64,000 nt of DNA. Source: Oscillospiraceae bacterium. Its GTDB lineage: Bacteria > Bacillota > Clostridia > Oscillospirales > CAG-382. Below the pieces are notes generated by a model. It saw only the letters and a program-made list of their open reading frames with translations, made no database searches and had not been told where the DNA came from. Both the position numbers and the translations under genes were made by a program. Below are positions 6,913 to 17,902 of the stretch, piece by piece; position 1 is the first letter of the stretch; every line of letters begins with the position of its first letter. Location of the stretch: the NCBI GenBank assembly GCA_015064895.1, contig SVRI01000001.1:266787-330786 (forward strand), given 5' to 3'.

Positions 6913-6970
6913 TACAAAATGAGGATTTTGTCAAATTGTGCAATACAATTTGTATAAGTTGACAGTAATA

Positions 6971-7014
6971 GAACAAATGTTTTTGTGCACACCTACAAAA
7001 TCGAACCCGTGTTC
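6971..7014. promoter_or_regulatory. Two LexA/SOS-like boxes
   Basis: GAACAAATGTTT (6971-6982) and GAACCCGTGTTC (7003-7014); match Gram-positive core GAAC-N4-GTTY. Confidence 0.5.
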
Positions 7015-7024
7015 TAAAAAATCG

Positions 7025-7053
7025 TTGACAAAAGGGTGATTTTGTGGTAAAAT
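7025..7053 (+). promoter_or_regulatory. SigmaA-like promoter of phage-derived cassette
   Basis: TTGACA-17nt-TAAAAT. Confidence 0.75.
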
Positions 7054-7116
7054 ACAGTCACAGAACAAAGAAAGTTCCGGTCATTCGTGTCCGGGATATT
7101 TTTTGCCGGCAATATA

Positions 7117-7128
7117 GAACAAATGTAC
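7117..7128. promoter_or_regulatory. Third, imperfect LexA-like box
   Basis: GAACAAATGTAC; 12-bp tagaacaaatgt identical to site at 6969-6980. Confidence 0.35.
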
Positions 7129-7158: not shown

Positions 7159-7335
7159 ATGAGAACCGAAACATTTTCAGGGCACTATACTGTTTGTGCT
7201 CAATGCGGATACAGATTTGAAAGAGGAGATGAAGCACTCAGAATAAAGGAAACGGGGGATATTGTCCATAATGACTGTTATGTGGATTATATGGACGATA
7301 ATGTCACCGAGCTTGCAGAAAAAATTGAGTTTTAG
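7159..7335 (+). CDS. 58-aa small zinc-binding protein (half-LIM-like CX2C-X20-HX2C)
   Basis: Translated by eye: MRTETFSGHYTVCAQCGYRFERGDEALRIKETGDIVHNDCYVDYMDDNVTELAEKIEF; RBS aaggaggtg upstream; below cutoff of supplied ORF track. Confidence 0.75.
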   Translation: MRTETFSGHYTVCAQCGYRFERGDEALRIKETGDIVHNDCYVDYMDDNVTELAEKIEF

Positions 7336-7343
7336 GAGGAAAA

Positions 7344-7730
7344 ATGAACAAGAAAAACGAAAGATTTATTGACCTTGAGCAGAGAATAAACGATTACTTT
7401 TTATATTGTGATGCCGTTAATGAGTCAAAAGAAGAGATGGTGAAGCCGTATACCCTTTCGGGACTGTTGTGTTACATCGGCATTTCAAGACAGGAATTTG
7501 AAAAAATATCAAAGACCAAAAGATACCAAAAGCTCATTTCAAGAGCTAAGTCCAAAATTGAAGCCTTTATAGAGGAAAACGCCCTGACCGGCGAGCTTTC
7601 AATAAGTGCTGCCACAAACAGCTTAAAATACAATTTCGGCTGGGGTGAAAAGGCAGACAGAAATGAATCGGAGGAACATGGACCGTTAACTGTTGTTCTT
7701 TCACCCGAGACACAAGAGTTTGCAAAGTAG
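7344..7730 (+). CDS. Phage terminase small subunit
   Basis: Immediately 5' of TerL; HTH-like N-terminus (TLSGLLCYIGISRQEFEKI) and conserved ...ATNSLKYNFGWGEK tail typical of TerS. Confidence 0.8.
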   Translation: MNKKNERFIDLEQRINDYFLYCDAVNESKEEMVKPYTLSGLLCYIGISRQEFEKISKTKRYQKLISRAKSKIEAFIEENALTGELSISAATNSLKYNFGWGEKADRNESEEHGPLTVVLSPETQEFAK

Positions 7731-7740
7731 GTGATTTTGC

Positions 7741-9048
7741 TTGTCAAATAAAACAAAGCCAAAGCTGAATCTTTCAGGCTTTCCTCAGGAAAAGCAAAGA
7801 ATGTTTTTCCTTGCCGACACAAAATATATAGCCTACGGCGGTGCAAGGGGCGGCGGCAAAAGCTGGGCACTGAGAAGAAAGCTTGTACTTCTTGCACTTA
7901 ATTATGCCGGTATATCCATACTCCTTATTAGGCGAACCCTTCCCGAACTCAGGGATAATCATATAAGACCTCTCACAAAAGAGCTGTCGGGCTTTTGCAA
8001 GTATTCTGCCATGAAGAAGTGCTTTGATTTTCCCAACGGCTCGAGAATACAGCTTGGATATCTCGACAGTGACGGCGACCTTTTGCAGTATCAGGGGCAA
8101 GAGTATGACATTATTGCTCTTGATGAGGCAACCCAAATTACAGAGTATCAGTTTCACACGTTAAAGGGAAGCCTCAGAGGTGCAAACAGCTTCCCGAAAC
8201 GTATGTATATCACCTGCAATCCGGGAGGGGTGGGTCATGCATGGGTAAAACGTCTGTTTATCGACCGCAATTTCAGAGAGGGTGAAAATCCCGACGAATA
8301 CAGCTTTATTCAGGCACTTGTTTATGATAATGAAATATTGCTTAAAAAGAATCCCGATTATCTCAATCAGCTGAAAAGTCTGCCCGAATCATTGAAGCAG
8401 GCATGGCTCTGCGGCAGATGGGACGAATTTGAAGGACAGTTTTTTTCTGAGTTTGATTATTACAAACATACATGTCCCGTGTGTGAAATAAATGAAGATG
8501 TGCGTAAATACTGTGCCATTGACTACGGACTTGATATGCTTGCGGCGGTGTTTGTGGCGGTAGATAATAAGGGAAACTGTGTTGTTTATGATGAAATCCA
8601 CATGGAAAACCTTATAGTCAGCAAGGCTTCAGAACTTATAAAAGAAAAAATGGATGGTGTTTGCATGGTAATTGCACCCTCTGATTTGTGGTCAAGACAA
8701 AAGGATTCAGGCAAAAGCATTGCAGAGCTTTTTTGCGAAAACGGAGTGTATCTTACAAAGCTCAAAAGCGAAAGAATCGGCGGTTGGATGTGTCTTAGGG
8801 AATACCTGAAAAAAGACGGAAAACTTAAGATTATGCGTAACTGTCAAAATCTCATAAGATGTCTGCCTCTTCTTATGCACGACAAGACGAGAATAGGCGA
8901 TGCCTCGACAAAGCCCCATAACATTACCCATGCACCCGATGCTCTCAGATACTTTGCAGTATCTCGTTACAGCGATGTGTTTGCGGAAAATAAGGAAAAC
9001 ACGTCCATAAAGCTTAAAGATAAAATAAAGACAAAGAAGGAGTACTAA
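7741..9048 (+). CDS. Phage terminase large subunit
   Basis: Walker A GARGGGKS, Walker B IIALDEATQ, nuclease motifs AIDYGLDMLAAVFVAVD and HAPDALRYFA; TTG start. Confidence 0.95.
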   Translation: MSNKTKPKLNLSGFPQEKQRMFFLADTKYIAYGGARGGGKSWALRRKLVLLALNYAGISILLIRRTLPELRDNHIRPLTKELSGFCKYSAMKKCFDFPNGSRIQLGYLDSDGDLLQYQGQEYDIIALDEATQITEYQFHTLKGSLRGANSFPKRMYITCNPGGVGHAWVKRLFIDRNFREGENPDEYSFIQALVYDNEILLKKNPDYLNQLKSLPESLKQAWLCGRWDEFEGQFFSEFDYYKHTCPVCEINEDVRKYCAIDYGLDMLAAVFVAVDNKGNCVVYDEIHMENLIVSKASELIKEKMDGVCMVIAPSDLWSRQKDSGKSIAELFCENGVYLTKLKSERIGGWMCLREYLKKDGKLKIMRNCQNLIRCLPLLMHDKTRIGDASTKPHNITHAPDALRYFAVSRYSDVFAENKENTSIKLKDKIKTKKEY

Positions 9049-9049
9049 A

Positions 9050-10819
9050 ATGAGAAGAACAAAAACCTCAAGAACCATTTCAAAATCATCACTCTACGAT
9101 TATTCGGGTGTGCATGAAAGGGAAGAAAGCATAGCGTTTCTTCTTGATTACGCATCAAAGAGTAAATCGTCAACCGAACAGTACTGGAAGAAGATGAGAC
9201 GGTACTATGACGGAAAGCATGATATATCTGCCTCTACCGAAGAATTTGCATTGTCAAGGGAACTTACCTGGACACCGGCCCAATGTACCGACGGTTACAT
9301 TCATGTAGAAAGCCAGATAAACCCTGCTATTCCTGATTTTGAATTTTCACCCAGGGACAGAACAGACTATGACAAGGCAAAGCAGAGGGAAAGAATTGCA
9401 AAGTACATATGTGACAACAATGACATGACCTTTAAAAACTCAAGAAATGAGAGAAATCTCGGAATACTCGGCAGTGCGGTATGGAAGGTTTGCTGGGATA
9501 ACAATGCTCTTTACGGCGAAAGCAGAGGGGATGTTTCGGTGCTTGCACCGTATCCGGATGAAATCTTTACAGATCCTTCGGCTAAGGATGTTGATTCCTG
9601 CGAATATATAGGATACGTTTACAGACTCCATAAGCAGAAGGCAGTAAGAATCTTTGCCGATGATTTTAAGCGTGAAAATACAACCCTTGATGACTATCTT
9701 GACACGTCTTATTTCTTCAACTTAGGTACAAGCCTCAGTTCTGATGAGTATGACTGTGATGAAGACACGGTTAGTGTGACGGAATGGTGGTTCAGACAGC
9801 CGTGTGACGGTAAGGCGGACATAAGACAAAATGACAGAATCGTACATTACGAATGGAAGGCGGGAGATATCGCACTGTCGGTTCTCATAAACGGCAAGGA
9901 AGTAAGATATATTCCCAAATACTGGAAGAAAACAGACTTTGAAAACTTTCCGTTTGTTATATACTCAAGACTTCCGGGTGAAAAATCCATATGGGGCAGA
10001 AGCGAAATCGAGATGATTATTCCCCTTATTGACGCAAAGGACCGAGAGCTTACATACGCACAGCTCAATAACGCTTTTTCGTCAAATGACATAATTATAA
10101 CCGAGGAAAACGCCCTTTGCGACGGAGAAAACCTCGACAATTCACCGGGTGCTGTTTGGAAGGTAAGACCGGGAATGATGGGCAAGGTGGCAAGGCTTGG
10201 CAACATGGCGGCAAGCCAGAATTCCTTGTATTCGGGTGCCATGTACTGGCAGAATCTTATAGAAACCACTACAGGTAACTTTGAAATAAGCCAGGGTAAA
10301 GAGCCTTCAAGCGTAACTACGGCAACAGGTATCGCACTTCTTAATGAGCGTGCCGAGTCGAGAAAGAATCAGAAAAACATTGACAGAAATGCGGGATTTA
10401 AGAGGTTGTTTGAGCTTATAGACAAGACCGCACTTGAATGTTACAGCGACGGAAAGATTGTGAGAATCGGGGCGGCTGAGGACGAAATTGTTTACAAGTA
10501 CGGCGGCTTTGTCAAAAAGACAAGGGAAAGTATGTATATTCCTTCTGTTGACATTACTATTCACACAGGCTCTGCCATCACAAATTCCAAGGCATTTACC
10601 GTTTCTGCACTTACGTCTCTTATCGGTATGAATATAACCGATGATAACTATAAGCTTGTAAAGGCATATGTCGAAACAATCGGTATTCCCGAAAGAGCCG
10701 AAATATGCGAATACCTTGACAAAAAATTCGGCGGCGGTGACGACAGTCAGATTAATTACGATACTATCATGAAAATAATCGAAAACTCAATTATCAAGGA
10801 GGAAAGCGTTAATGAATAA
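9050..10819 (+). CDS. Phage portal protein
   Basis: Position after TerL; size 589 aa; P22-type/large portal-like sequence (FVIYSRLPGEKSIWGRSEIEMIIPLIDAKDRELTYAQLN). Confidence 0.8.
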   Translation: MRRTKTSRTISKSSLYDYSGVHEREESIAFLLDYASKSKSSTEQYWKKMRRYYDGKHDISASTEEFALSRELTWTPAQCTDGYIHVESQINPAIPDFEFSPRDRTDYDKAKQRERIAKYICDNNDMTFKNSRNERNLGILGSAVWKVCWDNNALYGESRGDVSVLAPYPDEIFTDPSAKDVDSCEYIGYVYRLHKQKAVRIFADDFKRENTTLDDYLDTSYFFNLGTSLSSDEYDCDEDTVSVTEWWFRQPCDGKADIRQNDRIVHYEWKAGDIALSVLINGKEVRYIPKYWKKTDFENFPFVIYSRLPGEKSIWGRSEIEMIIPLIDAKDRELTYAQLNNAFSSNDIIITEENALCDGENLDNSPGAVWKVRPGMMGKVARLGNMAASQNSLYSGAMYWQNLIETTTGNFEISQGKEPSSVTTATGIALLNERAESRKNQKNIDRNAGFKRLFELIDKTALECYSDGKIVRIGAAEDEIVYKYGGFVKKTRESMYIPSVDITIHTGSAITNSKAFTVSALTSLIGMNITDDNYKLVKAYVETIGIPERAEICEYLDKKFGGGDDSQINYDTIMKIIENSIIKEESVNE

Positions 10820-11555
10820 CGAATACACAGTTGAAAATGCATCACAACAGCCTAAAGAAGGCGATAACAATACACAGCAGGAAAAGACATTTACCCAGAG
10901 TCAGCTCGAAGAAATCATCCGTGAAAGACTTTTGAGAGAACGAAAGGTAAACGAATCCTTATCATCGGTAAAACAGCTTCTTAAAAGTGCATGCGAAAAG
11001 GGATATATCAAGGGGGCTTCTTATACCGAAATGGCAAAGGACCTTGTCGGAAAGCTGCAGGAAAAACAGCAGGCTGAATGTGATGAAGAGCCCGAAAAGG
11101 ACACAACATCCGTATGCGCAGATACGGACGGAAAAGAAACTGACGGTGATAATGCCGGTAATGACGTAGTGAAGGAAGACGCAGATAATAAGCAAGGCTT
11201 TATGGACACTCTTTCGAGAATCAAGGCAAAGTATCCTAAAAGTGCTGTTGAAAAACTGCTCGAGGGGAATTTGTTTGAAACCTTTGCCAGAGGACGAAGC
11301 GGAAGTGCAGAGGAAATATTTGACGATTACTATACCTTTGTTTCCATGGCAAATCCGGAATTTAAAAAGGCTCAGGATAACACCGACGGCACATTTTCAT
11401 CTACAGCGTTTTCTTCCCAATCGGGAGTTGCTGAAAGCGGCTCAAATCTTACAAGACAGCAGATGGATATAGCGAAAAGTGCAGGAATGTCTTACCGCGA
11501 ATATCAGAATCTTCTGGAATCCATTCCCACAAAAAACGGGAGAGCATTTAATTAA
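10812..11555 (+). CDS. Phage scaffold-like protein
   Basis: Acidic, Gln/Glu-rich coiled-coil (EKTFTQSQLEEIIRERLLRERKV); between portal and capsid; overlaps portal stop. Confidence 0.7.
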   Translation: MNNEYTVENASQQPKEGDNNTQQEKTFTQSQLEEIIRERLLRERKVNESLSSVKQLLKSACEKGYIKGASYTEMAKDLVGKLQEKQQAECDEEPEKDTTSVCADTDGKETDGDNAGNDVVKEDADNKQGFMDTLSRIKAKYPKSAVEKLLEGNLFETFARGRSGSAEEIFDDYYTFVSMANPEFKKAQDNTDGTFSSTAFSSQSGVAESGSNLTRQQMDIAKSAGMSYREYQNLLESIPTKNGRAFN

Positions 11556-11578
11556 AAAAAGAAAAGGAGAAATGAAAA

Positions 11579-12226
11579 ATGAAGTTTTTATATTCACTCG
11601 GCGGCGGTAATATCCCCGTTATCAGAGAATATGATATTGAAGCAAACAAGCAGTTCAAAAAGGGGCAGGTTGTAAAGATTTCACTTGAAGGTGTGATTTC
11701 AACAACTGCTGCAGGCGGCTGCATTGGTATTGCAGCAGAGGACCACACGGCTGAAAAGGATATCCTAAATGAAAGAAACAACGGTACAAAACTGAGAGTT
11801 GACATCACAAGACATGCAGTCTATGAGGTTGATGCACCGAGACTTGTTGCAACAGGCGGAAGCAATACTACTTTTGTTTGTTCTTCCACAGGTCTTATGG
11901 AAAACCTTGAAAATTCGACTCTTGTGCTTGTCCGCAAGGGTGAAAACTCTGAAAACACAGATACTGTTGGTACTGTAAGAAAGGTTTCGTTGATTTCCGT
12001 TTCCAATACATCAGCCACATTTACAATCTCTGACGGCGGCATTGTTTCCGAAGGCGATGTATATGCCCTTATACCCATATGCGGTTTTATGGGCAATGTT
12101 GGCGGCAACGACGGCTCTTTTAAATGTGTAAGCACGATGGATTCAACACCGGCTTTTGTCATGGCTTACAATACCGACACACTTACTCTTGAGGTTATGC
12201 CCAAGAAGGACTTTATTGCTTATTAA
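11579..12226 (+). CDS. Phage head/decoration-type protein
   Basis: 215 aa, beta-rich, located directly before the major capsid gene. Confidence 0.45.
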   Translation: MKFLYSLGGGNIPVIREYDIEANKQFKKGQVVKISLEGVISTTAAGGCIGIAAEDHTAEKDILNERNNGTKLRVDITRHAVYEVDAPRLVATGGSNTTFVCSSTGLMENLENSTLVLVRKGENSENTDTVGTVRKVSLISVSNTSATFTISDGGIVSEGDVYALIPICGFMGNVGGNDGSFKCVSTMDSTPAFVMAYNTDTLTLEVMPKKDFIAY

Positions 12227-12244
12227 GGAAAGGAAGTAGAAACA

Positions 12245-13156
12245 ATGAACGATATTTATACATGGCACAATGACCTTTATCCTCTTATTAAAAAGAGATT
12301 TGACCTTCGTTATGCAAAGCGTCTTGACGCTATCAACCAGGTTTGTGATGTTGTTTGTCAGGATGACATTGACTATAGAATCGAGGGTATCGGCGGCTAC
12401 GGCGAAATGCCGGTATACGACGGTACAACCGTTGTGGGTGCCGACACCAAGAGAACATTTATTACAACAATCACACCCAAGGAGCACGCCCTCAAGGTGA
12501 CAAGTACATATAAAAAGGCAAAGCTCGACTATTCGGGTGAGTCTCAGAAGATAGGTACACGTCTTGCAGACTCTGCATACATGACGGTACTTAACGAGTT
12601 CTACAGACTCTTCGGCTCTGCCTTTACAAACATCGGCTCCGACGGTGTGGCATGGGCAAGCGACAAGCACCCCGTATCAAAGGACAGCAAGGAAACCTTC
12701 TCCAACCTTATGACAGAGAACCTTTCTGTTGCAGCCATCACAAAGGCACAGACAACGGCATCCCGTTTTGTAACTCCCGACGGTCTTCCCTTTGCCTGCA
12801 ACTTTGACCTTCTTCTTGTAAGCCCCGAGCTTGAAGCAAAGGCGAAGGAAATCTGCGGCCCTAATTCCAGACTTATCCCCGAAAACAACCCCGATACAGA
12901 CACAAATGCGGCAAATCCCGTATACGGCATGAAGTATCTTGTTGTGGGCGGCGGTAATGCAGGCTTTACGGGCAAGCAGTGGGCTGTTGCAGACTCTCTT
13001 ATGCTTTCCGAAGTATTAAAGCTCGTCTACATCACAAAGCCCACTGTTCTTGTGTCTCCTCAGGATAATCCTCTTATCACCGATTATATCGGTTATGTGG
13101 ATTTTGCCTTTGGCTTCGGTGATGCAAGACCCATTATCTTCTCTAATCCCAACTAA
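12245..13156 (+). CDS. Phage major capsid protein
   Basis: Position and composition; capsid-like sequence (GADTKRTFITTITPKEHALKVTS..., DTNAANPVYGMKYLVVGG, TDYIGYVDFAFGFGDAR). Confidence 0.75.
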   Translation: MNDIYTWHNDLYPLIKKRFDLRYAKRLDAINQVCDVVCQDDIDYRIEGIGGYGEMPVYDGTTVVGADTKRTFITTITPKEHALKVTSTYKKAKLDYSGESQKIGTRLADSAYMTVLNEFYRLFGSAFTNIGSDGVAWASDKHPVSKDSKETFSNLMTENLSVAAITKAQTTASRFVTPDGLPFACNFDLLLVSPELEAKAKEICGPNSRLIPENNPDTDTNAANPVYGMKYLVVGGGNAGFTGKQWAVADSLMLSEVLKLVYITKPTVLVSPQDNPLITDYIGYVDFAFGFGDARPIIFSNPN

Positions 13157-13167
13157 GGAGTGTGAAG

Positions 13168-13431
13168 ATGATGGGCGGTTATTCCAGAATTCCCGTTAAG
13201 ACAAAAAACGAAGGGGTTATTTCTAACATTGAGTTTGAAATTGACACACAAGGTCTTGACTGTGTTATAAGAGCCGAGGGAACCGACCTTTTTGTTTATA
13301 CAAAATCAGGTGCGGATCAATCTGAAATGTATCTTGTAAAGGACGGCGAAACCTTCGAGTTCTGCGGCAAGATTTACTATCAGGTTGCCACTTCGGGAAC
13401 AGTATATACCTTTATGTATAACAGGCTTTAA
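13168..13431 (+). CDS. Small phage structural protein, unknown function
   Basis: ORF with aaggag RBS inside head operon (ORF track starts at GTG 13162). Confidence 0.5.
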   Translation: MMGGYSRIPVKTKNEGVISNIEFEIDTQGLDCVIRAEGTDLFVYTKSGADQSEMYLVKDGETFEFCGKIYYQVATSGTVYTFMYNRL

Positions 13432-13438
13432 ACAAAAT

Positions 13439-13465
13439 GCCGTCTGCTTCGGCAGACGGCTTATA
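13439..13465 (+). terminator. Intra-operon hairpin terminator
   Basis: gccgtctgc-ttcg-gcagacggc followed by T-rich tract. Confidence 0.7.
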
Positions 13466-13485
13466 TTTTAGAAAGGAGAAATGAA

Positions 13486-14406
13486 ATGTCAGAAAAAACA
13501 TACGGAACATTGAAAAAAAGAGTTTTCGACCTTCTTTTTGAGTATGCCCCCTCTGATGATACGGTTTTTATTGCCGACACAGACAAACAGCTTGTTTCTT
13601 CGAGAATGCCCGATGCGGTTAATTCTTCTTTTGTAAGAATGAGTGAGTCTCTTCCGTTGTGGACAAAAACGAGTATTCAAAAGCTGCATGATTTCAAAAA
13701 GGTTTTTACATATAACGGCATTTGCGATAAAGACACTCCGCTTGAGTTTGAGCTGACGGTTGACAGAATAGGTGTTTTCTTCAGGTTTTTCGGCAAGGGT
13801 AATGTAATTTTTTCGGACATGGATGGCAATCCTGTTTTGACAATTGAATGTGAGGGCTCAGGAAGCATCTCGTGCCATAAGAGTGTTGAGAATACGGACT
13901 ATACCGGTACTTGCCGTGTCTACACTGACGGCAACTTGTGTGTCAAGGGTTTTGCTGTTTATGAAAATGACTCAGAGCTTGACGAAAAAAGCCTTTGTGC
14001 CTTTAATGAAACAAGCTTTGAATTGCCGGAAGCGTTTGACAGACTTGTAAGTATAGAAGCTTCTTCGGGGAAAATAAACCGTGACAAAATATATGTCTGC
14101 GACGGATACGGATTTATATGCTCTGATTTGTGCAGGGGAGAAAACGAGCTTTGTATAGAGTATAAACGTAAGCCGTATACAGTTGGTGCACAAACGGCTG
14201 ACGATTTTGTGTTTGATGTAACGCACCTTGAATTTGAAGCACTTGTTTGCCTTGTTGCAAGTGAACTTTGCAGAGATGAAAACGCCGACTTATATGCAAG
14301 ACTTGTGTATAAATACAACGACCTTTGCGAGGGTATCAGAAGCTGTAATGTGTCAAAAAAAGGAAGAAACACCTTCTTTGGTGCAAAAATAAGACGGAGG
14401 TGGTAA
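13486..14406 (+). CDS. Phage head-tail connector-like protein with embedded beta-rich domain
   Basis: C-terminal LEFEALVCLVASELCRDENADLYARLVYKYNDLCEGI resembles adaptor/connector helices; middle ~110 aa beta-rich. Confidence 0.45.
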   Translation: MSEKTYGTLKKRVFDLLFEYAPSDDTVFIADTDKQLVSSRMPDAVNSSFVRMSESLPLWTKTSIQKLHDFKKVFTYNGICDKDTPLEFELTVDRIGVFFRFFGKGNVIFSDMDGNPVLTIECEGSGSISCHKSVENTDYTGTCRVYTDGNLCVKGFAVYENDSELDEKSLCAFNETSFELPEAFDRLVSIEASSGKINRDKIYVCDGYGFICSDLCRGENELCIEYKRKPYTVGAQTADDFVFDVTHLEFEALVCLVASELCRDENADLYARLVYKYNDLCEGIRSCNVSKKGRNTFFGAKIRRRW

Positions 14407-14407
14407 A

Positions 14408-16198
14408 ATGGCATATCTACCCTTGAGCTTTGTTCCAAAGAATAAAAAAAGCTTTAAGAATGTTAACTACAGACTGCCTGTGGGCGGGGTAAGTCTTTCG
14501 GATAACACAAGGAATGTTGACGAAGGAAAGTGCAGTTATATGTGCAATATGGATATGCTTTCCGACAGAATAAAAAACCGTGTTTTGCAGGAGATGGTAT
14601 GCCATGGTTTTGCCGCTGAAGAAAAAATCAACGGATATTTCAAAAGCCGGTTTTATGATAAGCTTGTTTTCCATGCGGGAACGCATTTGTACTTGTTTGG
14701 CTCGGGTGATGAAAAACCGAGCATCATAGCAGATAATCTGCCGGATAAACCAAGCCTTTTCTGTATATTTCTGTCGAAAATCTATATTTATTGCGATACG
14801 CATGTTTATACTCTTGACAGCGAATTTAACTTTGCCGAGGAATTGCCCGATGCACCCCTGATTTACGAATCCTGCGTTGCCAACGTCAGATATTCGGGCA
14901 AAAGAACCGAGCTGCCCTTCAATCTTTTGGCACCGAGAATTACGGTTTCCTATTCTCAATGTACCAACCGCACATTTATTCTGCCGCAAAATGCGGATGT
15001 AAAACGCGGTGCTGTGGTATATAAAGACGGAGAGGAAATGCCGTGTGATGAATTTGAGCTACATGAAGATTATCTTGAGATTTCTGACGGTCACGGTGCC
15101 GTAAACAGACTTGTTTCTTTATCTTATTTTGTGAGTGAGCCTGAAAAAATGGAGTTTGAAAATGTAATTGCCGATTGTGAGCTTATTGCGGATTTCGGCG
15201 GAAATGCCGAGGGTGGTACAAGATTGTTCTTTACAGGCAATAAGAACAAAAAGGGCTATTACTATAAAAGCGATTTTCTTAATCCTTTGTATGTTGCCGG
15301 CGACGGCTTTGAAATCATTGGCAACGGCAGTGAAAATATTACGGCTTTAAAGAAAATGTACGGTAATATGATTGTATTTACCGAGCAAAGCGTCTTTCGC
15401 ATGGGATACACCCTGGATAAAGACGGTTCGTTCTTTTCTGTCAAGGAGCTGAGCTCTGAGGCGGGATGCGATTGTCCCGATTCTGTTCAGCTTATAGATA
15501 ACAGAGTGGTGTTTGCCAACTCAAAAAAGGGTGTTTTCATAATAGAATCAACCGGTGAAAACGGCGAACAGAATATAAAGCCCATATCGGGAAATATACT
15601 GAAAGGCAATGGCATGGGGCTTTGTGATATTCCTACAGAGGCTTTGAAAAAGGCAAAATCCATTGACTTTGACAGAAAATATATGCTCTTTGCTGACGGT
15701 AAAGCATATATCTGGGACTATGATGAGGCCGGTTTTTCGGGAAGTTCAAACTATTCAAGAGCAGAAGAACGCCTTAAGTGGTATATTTATGACGGCATTC
15801 TCGGAAGTGAATTTGTAGAGGTTGACAGAAGCCTTTTGTCCTTTGATGAAACAGACGGTGTGCGTATTTTCAGGTTTAATGAAGATGTGAAAAAGTCCGA
15901 TTGTGAAGGTGTGTTTTACTCGGGAAACTCGGTTTTATTTGCACCGAAAAAGAGAAAGCATGTGTACAGCATGAGTATTAAGTTGTCAAGAAGTGATAAT
16001 TGCGATATCACCCTCGGATTTTTCGGCGACGGTGAAAAATACTATGAAACAAAACTTCCCAAGTGTGAAAAGAATAAGGAAAAAATCATAATGAAGCTTC
16101 CCAAAAAGGCTCTTTATGACTTTGCTTTTTCAATAAAAGCATGCGGTGAATATGAAATACAGGATATAGCCTTCGGCTATTACGAAATAAAAGAGTAA
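14408..16198 (+). CDS. Phage gp10/packaged-DNA-stabilisation-like (propeller-like) protein
   Basis: LPVGGVSLSDNTRNVDEGKCSYMCNMDM start, repeated YGNMIVFTEQSVFRMG / RVVFANSKKGVFII blades; position after connector. Confidence 0.5.
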   Translation: MAYLPLSFVPKNKKSFKNVNYRLPVGGVSLSDNTRNVDEGKCSYMCNMDMLSDRIKNRVLQEMVCHGFAAEEKINGYFKSRFYDKLVFHAGTHLYLFGSGDEKPSIIADNLPDKPSLFCIFLSKIYIYCDTHVYTLDSEFNFAEELPDAPLIYESCVANVRYSGKRTELPFNLLAPRITVSYSQCTNRTFILPQNADVKRGAVVYKDGEEMPCDEFELHEDYLEISDGHGAVNRLVSLSYFVSEPEKMEFENVIADCELIADFGGNAEGGTRLFFTGNKNKKGYYYKSDFLNPLYVAGDGFEIIGNGSENITALKKMYGNMIVFTEQSVFRMGYTLDKDGSFFSVKELSSEAGCDCPDSVQLIDNRVVFANSKKGVFIIESTGENGEQNIKPISGNILKGNGMGLCDIPTEALKKAKSIDFDRKYMLFADGKAYIWDYDEAGFSGSSNYSRAEERLKWYIYDGILGSEFVEVDRSLLSFDETDGVRIFRFNEDVKKSDCEGVFYSGNSVLFAPKKRKHVYSMSIKLSRSDNCDITLGFFGDGEKYYETKLPKCEKNKEKIIMKLPKKALYDFAFSIKACGEYEIQDIAFGYYEIKE

Positions 16199-16210
16199 AG
16201 GAGAATGATT

Positions 16211-16732
16211 ATGGCAAATCTTTGGAAATATGCATCTGTTCCCCAAAGGGAAAGACTCGACATGATAAGAAGCGGAAATGCTGATGTGTACAATGCTGAA
16301 AAGCGTCGAAACAACTCTCTCAAGATTTTAAGAGAATCCCTCGGTCTTTCAACACAGAATGTCGATGACTGGAATAAAACGGTAGATAACGCGTACTCCC
16401 TGTCGCAGCAAAAAACACAGGATAAAAGCGGTCTTCCAAAGTTTACGGGCGGCAAGTATGCAGAGATTAACAAGGCATTCAGCGAATCAATTAAAAACGT
16501 AAGACAGCAAAAGGACGAAAGCATAAAAGATGTGACAGAGGAAGCCGAAAGCACCTTAAGATACATCGGGGAATGGCTTGCCAATAACGGTTATTCCGAA
16601 AAGGGATACCTTGCAACTGCGGCAAAAAAGGAAATCAATGATGCACTTGAAGCGGCTCTTGAGGGCATTATTAAGGACTATGAAGAGGGTATCCAAAGTA
16701 TAAGAAGCAGGTTCCGTTCCATGGTTATGTGA
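16211..16732 (+). CDS. Helical phage-associated protein, unknown function
   Basis: ORF with aaggag RBS directly after the gp10-like gene; long alpha-helical composition. Confidence 0.5.
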   Translation: MANLWKYASVPQRERLDMIRSGNADVYNAEKRRNNSLKILRESLGLSTQNVDDWNKTVDNAYSLSQQKTQDKSGLPKFTGGKYAEINKAFSESIKNVRQQKDESIKDVTEEAESTLRYIGEWLANNGYSEKGYLATAAKKEINDALEAALEGIIKDYEEGIQSIRSRFRSMVM

Positions 16733-16775: not shown

Positions 16776-16783
16776 GGAGTAGA

Positions 16784-16998
16784 AAAACTCTGCGTTCTAT
16801 GATGATTACCGTCAGAGAAAATCAAAGGATTCTTCTCAAAATTCAACGTCGCTTTTTTCGAATGCAATTAAGAGTTCGTTTGACGGCATCAAAAAGAACA
16901 TTTTGGAAAATGCAGAGCATTATTCCAAGACGGATAAGGCAAAAACTGATACTGCCAAACGTAAGGGAAATGCCATTAAGAGCAATATTCAGAAGTAA
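16784..16998 (+). pseudogene. 3' remnant of a phage structural gene (no start codon)
   Basis: Frame reads KNSAFYDDYRQRKSKDSSQNSTSLFSNAIKSSFDGIKKNILENAEHYSKTDKAKTDTAKRKGNAIKSNIQK*, preceded in frame by TAG. Confidence 0.5.
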
Positions 16999-17053: not shown

Positions 17054-17902
17054 ATGCAGACTTCAAAGAGTAAATATGTTATTGCTTTGTTTGTTTTAAC
17101 CATATCGTTTTTGTGTTCGTCCTGCTCAGAAACAAAAGTGACAGAAACAAAAGTGGCAGAGAAGAAAAACGAATACCGTCTCGTCACACCGACTCAGGAA
17201 GAACTTGATGAAATTGTGCCTCGGTTAGAACCGATTTTGTCGATGTTTCACAAGGATTATGACTGCACAAAAGATAACATTTACGAGTATATGTTTCACT
17301 ATGACCACTTGGATTATGTTTATCCGGAATATGACTCCGAGATTGAAGCGTTTGTAGCTGAACCGTTCGGGGTATCTGATGCAGGTTTTGTGTTTTGGTA
17401 TGAATATGGAATTCCCGAGAATGATCCTCTTGGAAAATTCCCGAAAATACGTGATGAAATATATGATGAAAACGGAAATGTGAACGAAGACTTGGCATGG
17501 GATTTGCTTGAAACCCAAGATGTGTATTACCGTGATTTGATAATAGGGCATAATAAATTTTCAGGAAAGTATATAGACTGGTTGGTCGAGGGCATATGGA
17601 ACGGAAAGGCTGACCACAAAAGCTTTATGAAGTTTGAAGACGAAACAAGGCTTTATTACTACGACGGATTTTATTACACCCCGGAATGTGTTGGTGACAG
17701 GGGCGGCGGAATATTCTACTACCCTAAAATCCACAATATTACTCCTTTGGAAGACGGTAAGTATGAAATAGTATATCAGCTTTACAATGATGGAGATGAA
17801 TATGTTGCTGCAAACAAGGCGGTTGTCGGATTAAAAGAAATATCTTCAGGCTTCCGGTTTTGGTCGATTTTCAGTATTGATTATGACATAGACAAGGCAT
17901 AA
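17054..17902 (+). CDS. Lipoprotein, unknown function
   Basis: Signal peptide with lipobox LCSSC; RBS gggggtt; 282 aa. Confidence 0.8.
   Translation: MQTSKSKYVIALFVLTISFLCSSCSETKVTETKVAEKKNEYRLVTPTQEELDEIVPRLEPILSMFHKDYDCTKDNIYEYMFHYDHLDYVYPEYDSEIEAFVAEPFGVSDAGFVFWYEYGIPENDPLGKFPKIRDEIYDENGNVNEDLAWDLLETQDVYYRDLIIGHNKFSGKYIDWLVEGIWNGKADHKSFMKFEDETRLYYYDGFYYTPECVGDRGGGIFYYPKIHNITPLEDGKYEIVYQLYNDGDEYVAANKAVVGLKEISSGFRFWSIFSIDYDIDKA

Follow-up and report, generated by a model that had tools for sequence, protein, structure and literature searches.

The window analysed here is a stretch of 64,000 nucleotides from the genome of an Oscillospiraceae bacterium, and it contains a cassette of eleven genes on one strand (7159-16732) whose promoter lies among several boxes of the type bound by the SOS repressor LexA. 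The locus raises the question of whether these boxes place the cassette under the host's DNA damage response and, if so, what kind of phage-derived element would be switched on in this way.

Predicted LexA operators at the cassette promoter

A preliminary description had placed three LexA-like boxes and a looser GAAC-N7-GTTC around a TTGACA-17-TAAAAT promoter and had proposed direct host SOS control of a cassette carrying no repressor of its own. All of these elements were confirmed in the sequence (Table 1).

Table 1. Features of the cassette region and of related loci; positions refer to the window unless preceded by a locus handle.
Feature	Position	Strand	Basis
Predicted LexA box 1, GAACAAATGTTT	6971-6982	+	LexA matrix 17.5 bits
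Predicted LexA box 2, GAACCCGTGTTC	7003-7014	+	9.7 bits; start 22 bp upstream of -35 start
Sigma-A-type cassette promoter, TTGACA-17-TAAAAT	7025-7053	+	Read from sequence
Probable decayed LexA box 3, GAAC (7063-7066)-N7-GTTC (7074-7077)	7063-7077	+	Position relative to relatives
Predicted LexA box 4, GAACAAATGTAC	7117-7128	+	12.9 bits; start 92 bp after -35 start
First cassette gene (zn58), 58-aa protein with CxxC...H..C	7159-7335	+	C, C, H, C unchanged across 11 homologues
Small terminase subunit TerS (GP3_package)	7344-7730	+	Pfam PF16677, 2.8e-17
Large terminase subunit TerL	7741-9048	+	PHROG 979, 7.5e-46; Pfam; Walker A GGARGGGKS, Walker B IIALDEA
P22-like portal	9050-10819	+	PF16510, 2.3e-14; phrog_156, 3.4e-35
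Head scaffolding protein	10812-11555	+	phrog_2303, 9e-5; position
Small head/decoration-like protein upstream of capsid gene	11579-12226	+	Position and conservation only
Major capsid protein	12245-13156	+	phrog_371 major head protein, best 1.4e-6
Small conserved structural-type protein	13162-13431	+	Same position in part of the cassettes
Head-tail adaptor-like protein (P22 gp4 position)	13486-14406	+	Position; phrog_13046, 1.4e-6
Short-tail nozzle, P22 gp10-like fold	14408-16198	+	AlphaFold pLDDT 83.9; Foldseek top match P22 gp10, 2.2e-18
Last cassette gene	16205-16732	+	Alignment; length varies in relatives, about 165-468 aa
Suggested remnant of wall-hydrolase/effector gene (follows cassette in L044)	16783-16998	+	Local alignment scores above 998 and 989 of 1000 shuffles
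Lipoprotein	17054-17902	+	53% identical to lipoprotein after hydrolase gene in L044
Candidate operon II loci, genus g10	L243:1753-6079; L217:5881-7064; L247:2895-4077; L245	reverse (L245)	LexA-boxed endolysin and holin
Family with shared N-terminus	L216:4995-6500; L044:14303-15697; L232; L236; L240; L246	- (L216)	

The bare GAACN4GTTY pattern is no commoner in the window than expected (5 matches, expectation 5.49), and its count alone is therefore no proof. The clustering around the promoter nevertheless stands out when scored with a LexA matrix, built from 22 lexA/recA boxes of this bacterial family only: among 2000 shuffles of the promoter region, 4 reach two sites at threshold and 2 reach three sites at a relaxed threshold. 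The window's own genome, searched by pattern and by stretches, holds 71 distinct GAACN4GTTY sites, of which box 1 and the box before a DinB/UmuC-type polymerase gene, the same 12-mer GAACAAATGTTT, are the joint best by the matrix, both scoring above the lexA box. A stricter motif, CGAACN4GTTYG, was too strict here, with a single site in the genome, and the high-scoring site C27:6249 was not counted as regulatory, being inside the coding frame of an M23-G5 protein. A second LexA-type promoter of this genome (G000:C22:28140-28189; L214/L222) has two boxes around TTGACA-TATAAT; it precedes the gene for a DUF6291 protein.

The host motif was examined in the same way. A single true lexA (L024) and a single recA (L026) were found in the genome, a second LexA-like match resembling a MarR-type regulator. 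The L024 sequence has an Ala-Gly cleavage site together with Ser and Lys, the residues needed for self-cleavage in LexA proteins. Its promoter carries GAACTTTTGTTT overlapping the -35 element (context AGAACTTTTGTTTGACA), and that of recA a half-conserved GAACTTTTGTCG (other-strand context AGAACTTTTGTCGA), so that the possibility of a differing host motif, raised in the preliminary description, found no support. LexA and RecA were located in 30 genomes of the family; a box of GAACN4GTTY type, or with one mismatch, precedes lexA in 13 of 13 readable cassette-bearing relatives, and the recA promoters of most relatives without the cassette (outgroup) show GAACN4GTTC or GTTT. The same GAACN4GTTT/GTTC operators are used in C. 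difficile (PMC4234289).

The decisive evidence for the boxes is their conservation in relatives. The matrix finds 38 sites in 13 cassette promoter regions (4.8 kb) versus 5 in the other 295 kb of flanking DNA, a 466-fold higher density in the promoters, while dinucleotide shuffles of the promoter regions yield 0.61 sites on average and 3 at most; equal frequency of such sites elsewhere, which would have undone the proposal, is thus not what is seen. Of 21 cassette promoters, drawn from two families, 20 have a box that begins 20-22 bp ahead of the -35 start; in the exception (L174) a box overlaps the -35 element. The promoter spacer is 17 bp in all 21. The first family has additional boxes at roughly +40 to +44 and +82 to +109, counted from the start of the -35 element. 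Box 1 begins 54 bp upstream of the -35 element in the window and 53-54 bp upstream in those three g1-type relatives whose promoters could be read. The operator accordingly fits the genome's own lexA/recA motif and is kept at its promoter position in relatives, as in a member of the Gram-positive LexA regulon.

The window's boxes score 17.5, 9.7 and 12.9 bits versus 17.5, 18.3 and 17.0 bits in the sister species L043; two of the three are therefore weaker than their counterparts. The site at 7063 is probably a decayed LexA box at a conserved position, because the +40 to +44 box of the relatives lies about 62-64 bp after box 2 and L044 carries an intact AAACAGATGTTC at the aligned site. A chance origin of the boxes was ruled out by the matrix enrichment over shuffles and the kept geometry. 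They are real, and it is very probable that they function as LexA sites; motif match, site density and conserved position relative to the -35 element together make LexA control of the cassette promoter very likely, in support of the direct SOS control proposed earlier.

Across the order, the pattern "box, 7-10 bp, TTGAC, 18 bp, TANAAT" occurs in 24 of 394 genomes at 27 places, about a third of which are cassette promoters; others precede Y-family polymerases. No strong boxes were found in the stretches checked of relatives with capsid proteins 45-58% similar (L057-L061, L124-L132, L175-L180), one of which, L057, resembles an ordinary phage in having holin and endolysin genes. Canonical boxes are also absent from L123, a short metagenome contig with 69% capsid identity. 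In the second family (L172, L173, L174, L185-L188) the coding sequence of zn58 repeatedly contains a strong LexA-like box. It may reflect coding constraint only or a real intragenic operator, and these boxes were left out of the operator counts.

A host-inherited set of head and packaging genes

The cassette encodes terminase, portal, scaffold, capsid and short-tail components (Table 1), preceded by a 58-aa protein that is probably zinc-binding. The unrelated G271 cassette described below likewise opens with a gene for a Cys-rich protein. The capsid assignment was reproduced in 12 of 12 homologues, all matching phrog_371, with 69-97% identity among those aligned; an AlphaFold model of the capsid protein was set aside because of its pLDDT of 36, and PDB sequence searches with capsid, terminase, portal and nozzle returned nothing useful. 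By Pfam and PHROG, the cassette has no recognisable gene for an integrase, a repressor, replication or lysis, which bears out the earlier statement that it carries no repressor of its own. The gene set thus lacks what would make up a complete prophage (integrase, repressor, replication and lysis genes), and the integrase and own regulatory/replication module of a cf-PICI satellite were recognised neither in nor beside it. Phage-type head and packaging genes free of replication and integration genes are what is expected of a gene transfer agent. Since TerS belongs to an ordinary packaging family, some preference for particular DNA is possible.

Both flanks consist of host genes: upstream lie those for an AddA-like helicase-nuclease and for a large protein of secreted type, downstream those for an oxidoreductase and a rhamnosidase; in L043 the cassette sits between the same genes. 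Directly behind the cassette, the alignment of 16783-16998 is no more than suggestive of a hydrolase/effector remnant. The lipoprotein that follows could possibly be the immunity partner of a lost hydrolase, and a similar lipoprotein stands after the LexA-boxed hydrolase of L246.

Most of the genomes analysed are draft metagenome bins. The capsid gene was found in every genome sampled from four genera (4/4, 4/4, 5/5 and 2/2, 15 in all) and in none of nine other genera of the family, and the cassette occurs essentially once per genome. The same gene set, again with LexA boxes, was found in a second family of this order, in seven genomes spread over four genera. Pairwise distances between cassette proteins track those between host proteins (terL/lexA, r=0.89; mcp/recA, r=0.83; portal/recA, r=0.70; Mantel p=0.0005 for each). 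Genus-level groups match in the host and cassette trees, whereas the deepest branching differs, g5 grouping with g1 in one tree and with g10 in the other.

Ratios of dN to dS are about 0.05-0.33, several dS values being saturated; capsid reading frames are open in all genomes, and the box position is kept while the flanking DNA has diverged. Host inheritance combined with purifying selection, the second feature looked for in a gene transfer agent, is therefore found. The capsid gene has dN and dS far below those of its neighbours and 97% identity to L043, compared with 32% for the adaptor. Host recA has a similarly low dS, whereas addA and lexA have high values. Recombination was considered as the cause of the low capsid dS, but with recA similarly low, strong codon constraint is as likely an explanation; the pattern, as in recA, suggests a strong codon or sequence constraint. 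On its gene content and descent, the cassette is no ordinary prophage and is best described as a single-copy, co-diverging domesticated packaging set.

Candidate partner operons and known systems

Release and attachment functions were sought elsewhere in cassette-bearing genomes. In genus g10 all five genomes have one Phage_holin_4_1 gene, with an M23 endolysin adjacent in four. In G049 and G051 the holin-endolysin pair is preceded by two strong LexA boxes together with a perfect sigma-A promoter; a single box overlaps the endolysin-holin promoter in G050, where a separate receptor-binding-like gene likewise has LexA boxes, and only weak boxes were seen at the holin locus of G052. In G053, receptor-binding-like, fibre-like, peptidase, endolysin and holin genes form one operon with a promoter box of 18.1 bits. 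These LexA-boxed endolysin-holin loci are candidates for an operon II (Table 1), receptor-binding-like genes being found among them in L243. The window's own genome yielded no holin (PF05105), no match to the hydrolase family described next and no partner operon, which is the main gap in the argument.

Cassette genomes also encode a family of proteins that have the same N-terminal domain but end in differing domains (CHAP, M23-SH3 or Ntox44). Several members lie behind LexA boxes and have lipoproteins next downstream; the family possibly represents particle-borne hydrolases or effectors with immunity genes.

Two further loci came to light. G271, of the second family (L220, L219), has another phage-type cassette with a contractile sheath gene and three LexA boxes, as well as a separate LexA-boxed operon with an LRR protein and a holin; a further phage type may here have come under SOS control independently. 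At L223:5733-6777 (G348), two LexA boxes of 18.6-18.8 bits precede genes for a barnase-type ribonuclease and for a protein resembling barstar.

Individual parts of such a system have precedents. In Faecalibacterium, operon I of FpGTA encodes TerS, TerL, portal, scaffold and capsid; the genes for fibre, receptor binding, holin and endolysin lie together in operon II, which is unlinked. The FpGTA particles of about 40 nm contain about 9 kb of host DNA (PMC12946183, 2026). The text of that paper refers to SOS in passing only, and LexA and promoter analysis are absent from it. By gene content the cassette resembles FpGTA in its compact podovirus-like operon of about 10 kb with the same five functions and, in genus g10, in the candidate separate operon for lysis and receptor binding. 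The TerS of FpGTA is without an obvious DNA-binding domain, unlike the cassette TerS with its GP3_package match.

RcGTA and DsGTA of alphaproteobacteria are likewise domesticated, host-inherited phage head cassettes whose production is influenced by LexA. They are of the long-tail siphovirus type, unlike the short-tail cassette; they also differ in being activated by GafA/CtrA. LexA apparently acts on RcGTA through CckA (PMC9638019), and for the DsGTA cluster only an in silico LexA site is reported (PMC6473078). From PBSX of Bacillus subtilis the cassette differs in its short-tail type, its host LexA boxes and the lack of an identified repressor. PBSX is a defective myovirus-like prophage with its own repressor. 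What the two would share is an SOS-inducible chromosomal element packaging host DNA fragments, documented for PBSX (PMC12946183) and deduced for the cassette from its genes. Phage GIL01 has a promoter directly repressed by host LexA via several SOS boxes (PMC4551915). Unlike the cassette, it is a replicating tectivirus whose own gp7 strengthens LexA binding, and it is not itself a domesticated set of packaging genes. P22-like podoviruses share the portal family and the gp10 nozzle fold, while integrase, repressor, lysis, tailspike and ejection genes were not recognised in the cassette. In the literature searched, which was incomplete and gives no proof of priority, no account was found of coordinated, position-conserved LexA control over an inherited packaging operon and over lysis operons unlinked to it.

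Proposed mechanism and alternative readings

The best reading, and in our judgement a reasonably probable one, is that the cassette serves as operon I in a system akin to a gene transfer agent and directly repressed by LexA. In the undamaged cell, LexA would sit on box 2 just upstream of the -35 element and on the boxes past the start site, thereby blocking the cassette's single promoter. After damage, RecA filaments would induce LexA self-cleavage, and the cassette would be expressed along with lexA and dinB. The terminase would then fill the capsids with cellular DNA, as the cassette has no element-specific replication or integration genes, and release and attachment would depend on factors from other LexA-controlled operons, as in the one related genus g10. 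LexA binding, induction, particle assembly, random packaging of host DNA and DNA transfer are what we infer from the operators and their kept geometry, the gene set, its co-divergence with the host under purifying selection and the unlinked co-regulated operons of relatives. DNA-damaged gut Clostridia of this group would probably make DNA-filled virus-like particles, because LexA sites are kept at the promoter of inherited head and packaging genes.

A wider version is offered more tentatively: a widespread two-operon system of rumen and gut Clostridia whose inherited packaging operon, unlinked receptor-binding/lysis operon and hydrolase/toxin genes would all be under direct, coordinated control of the host SOS repressor, giving particles that are DNA-filled and possibly armed with effectors. 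The sheath-bearing G271 cassette is an example of how further phage types may have been recruited likewise.

The main rival is a particle of the PBSX or bacteriocin kind, SOS-induced chiefly to kill neighbours by means of wall hydrolases or toxins, with packaging of host DNA incidental. The CHAP/M23-SH3/Ntox44 family in cassette genomes, with some members LexA-boxed and followed by lipoproteins, fits such a role, as does the precedent of PBSX, which is mitomycin-induced and packages about 13 kb of host DNA (PMC12946183). We consider it unlikely, since the window genome retains at most a remnant of a hydrolase gene, most cassettes have none adjacent, and entry of the shared-N-terminus proteins into the particle is without support.

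Alternatively, the cassette could be an SOS-induced capsid-forming satellite or defective prophage in need of a helper phage. Its terminase-to-nozzle order is that of a short-tailed phage, and it has no lysis or receptor-binding genes itself. Such a dependence on a helper is improbable given that no integrase or replication gene was identified and that the cassette is a single copy in every sampled member of four genera, under purifying selection and with distances that track host genes. Still less probable is a slowly decaying prophage remnant whose inherited boxes no longer matter: the two weak window boxes and the apparently degraded downstream gene might be read in this way, but the open capsid frames, a dN/dS well under 1 and a box position kept despite diverged flanking DNA speak for maintenance. 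That a different repressor of the GAAC-N4-GTTC type binds the boxes is scarcely credible, for although some relatives have additional LexA-like proteins, the window genome has its one true LexA with the same motif in its own promoter.

The result thus extends beyond the control region to a domesticated packaging cassette and co-regulated operons elsewhere in related genomes. Gene transfer agents in Gram-positive gut commensals have been reported only recently, in a paper silent on how they are switched on, and direct LexA repression would provide a specific switch. The promoter signature finds further members of the system across genomes, and the cassette lineage points to inheritance across genera. 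DNA damage, for example by antibiotics, would thereby be linked to gene exchange that may take place in the rumen and gut and, if the two-operon reading is true, would make the cell produce DNA-filled particles that are possibly armed with effectors.
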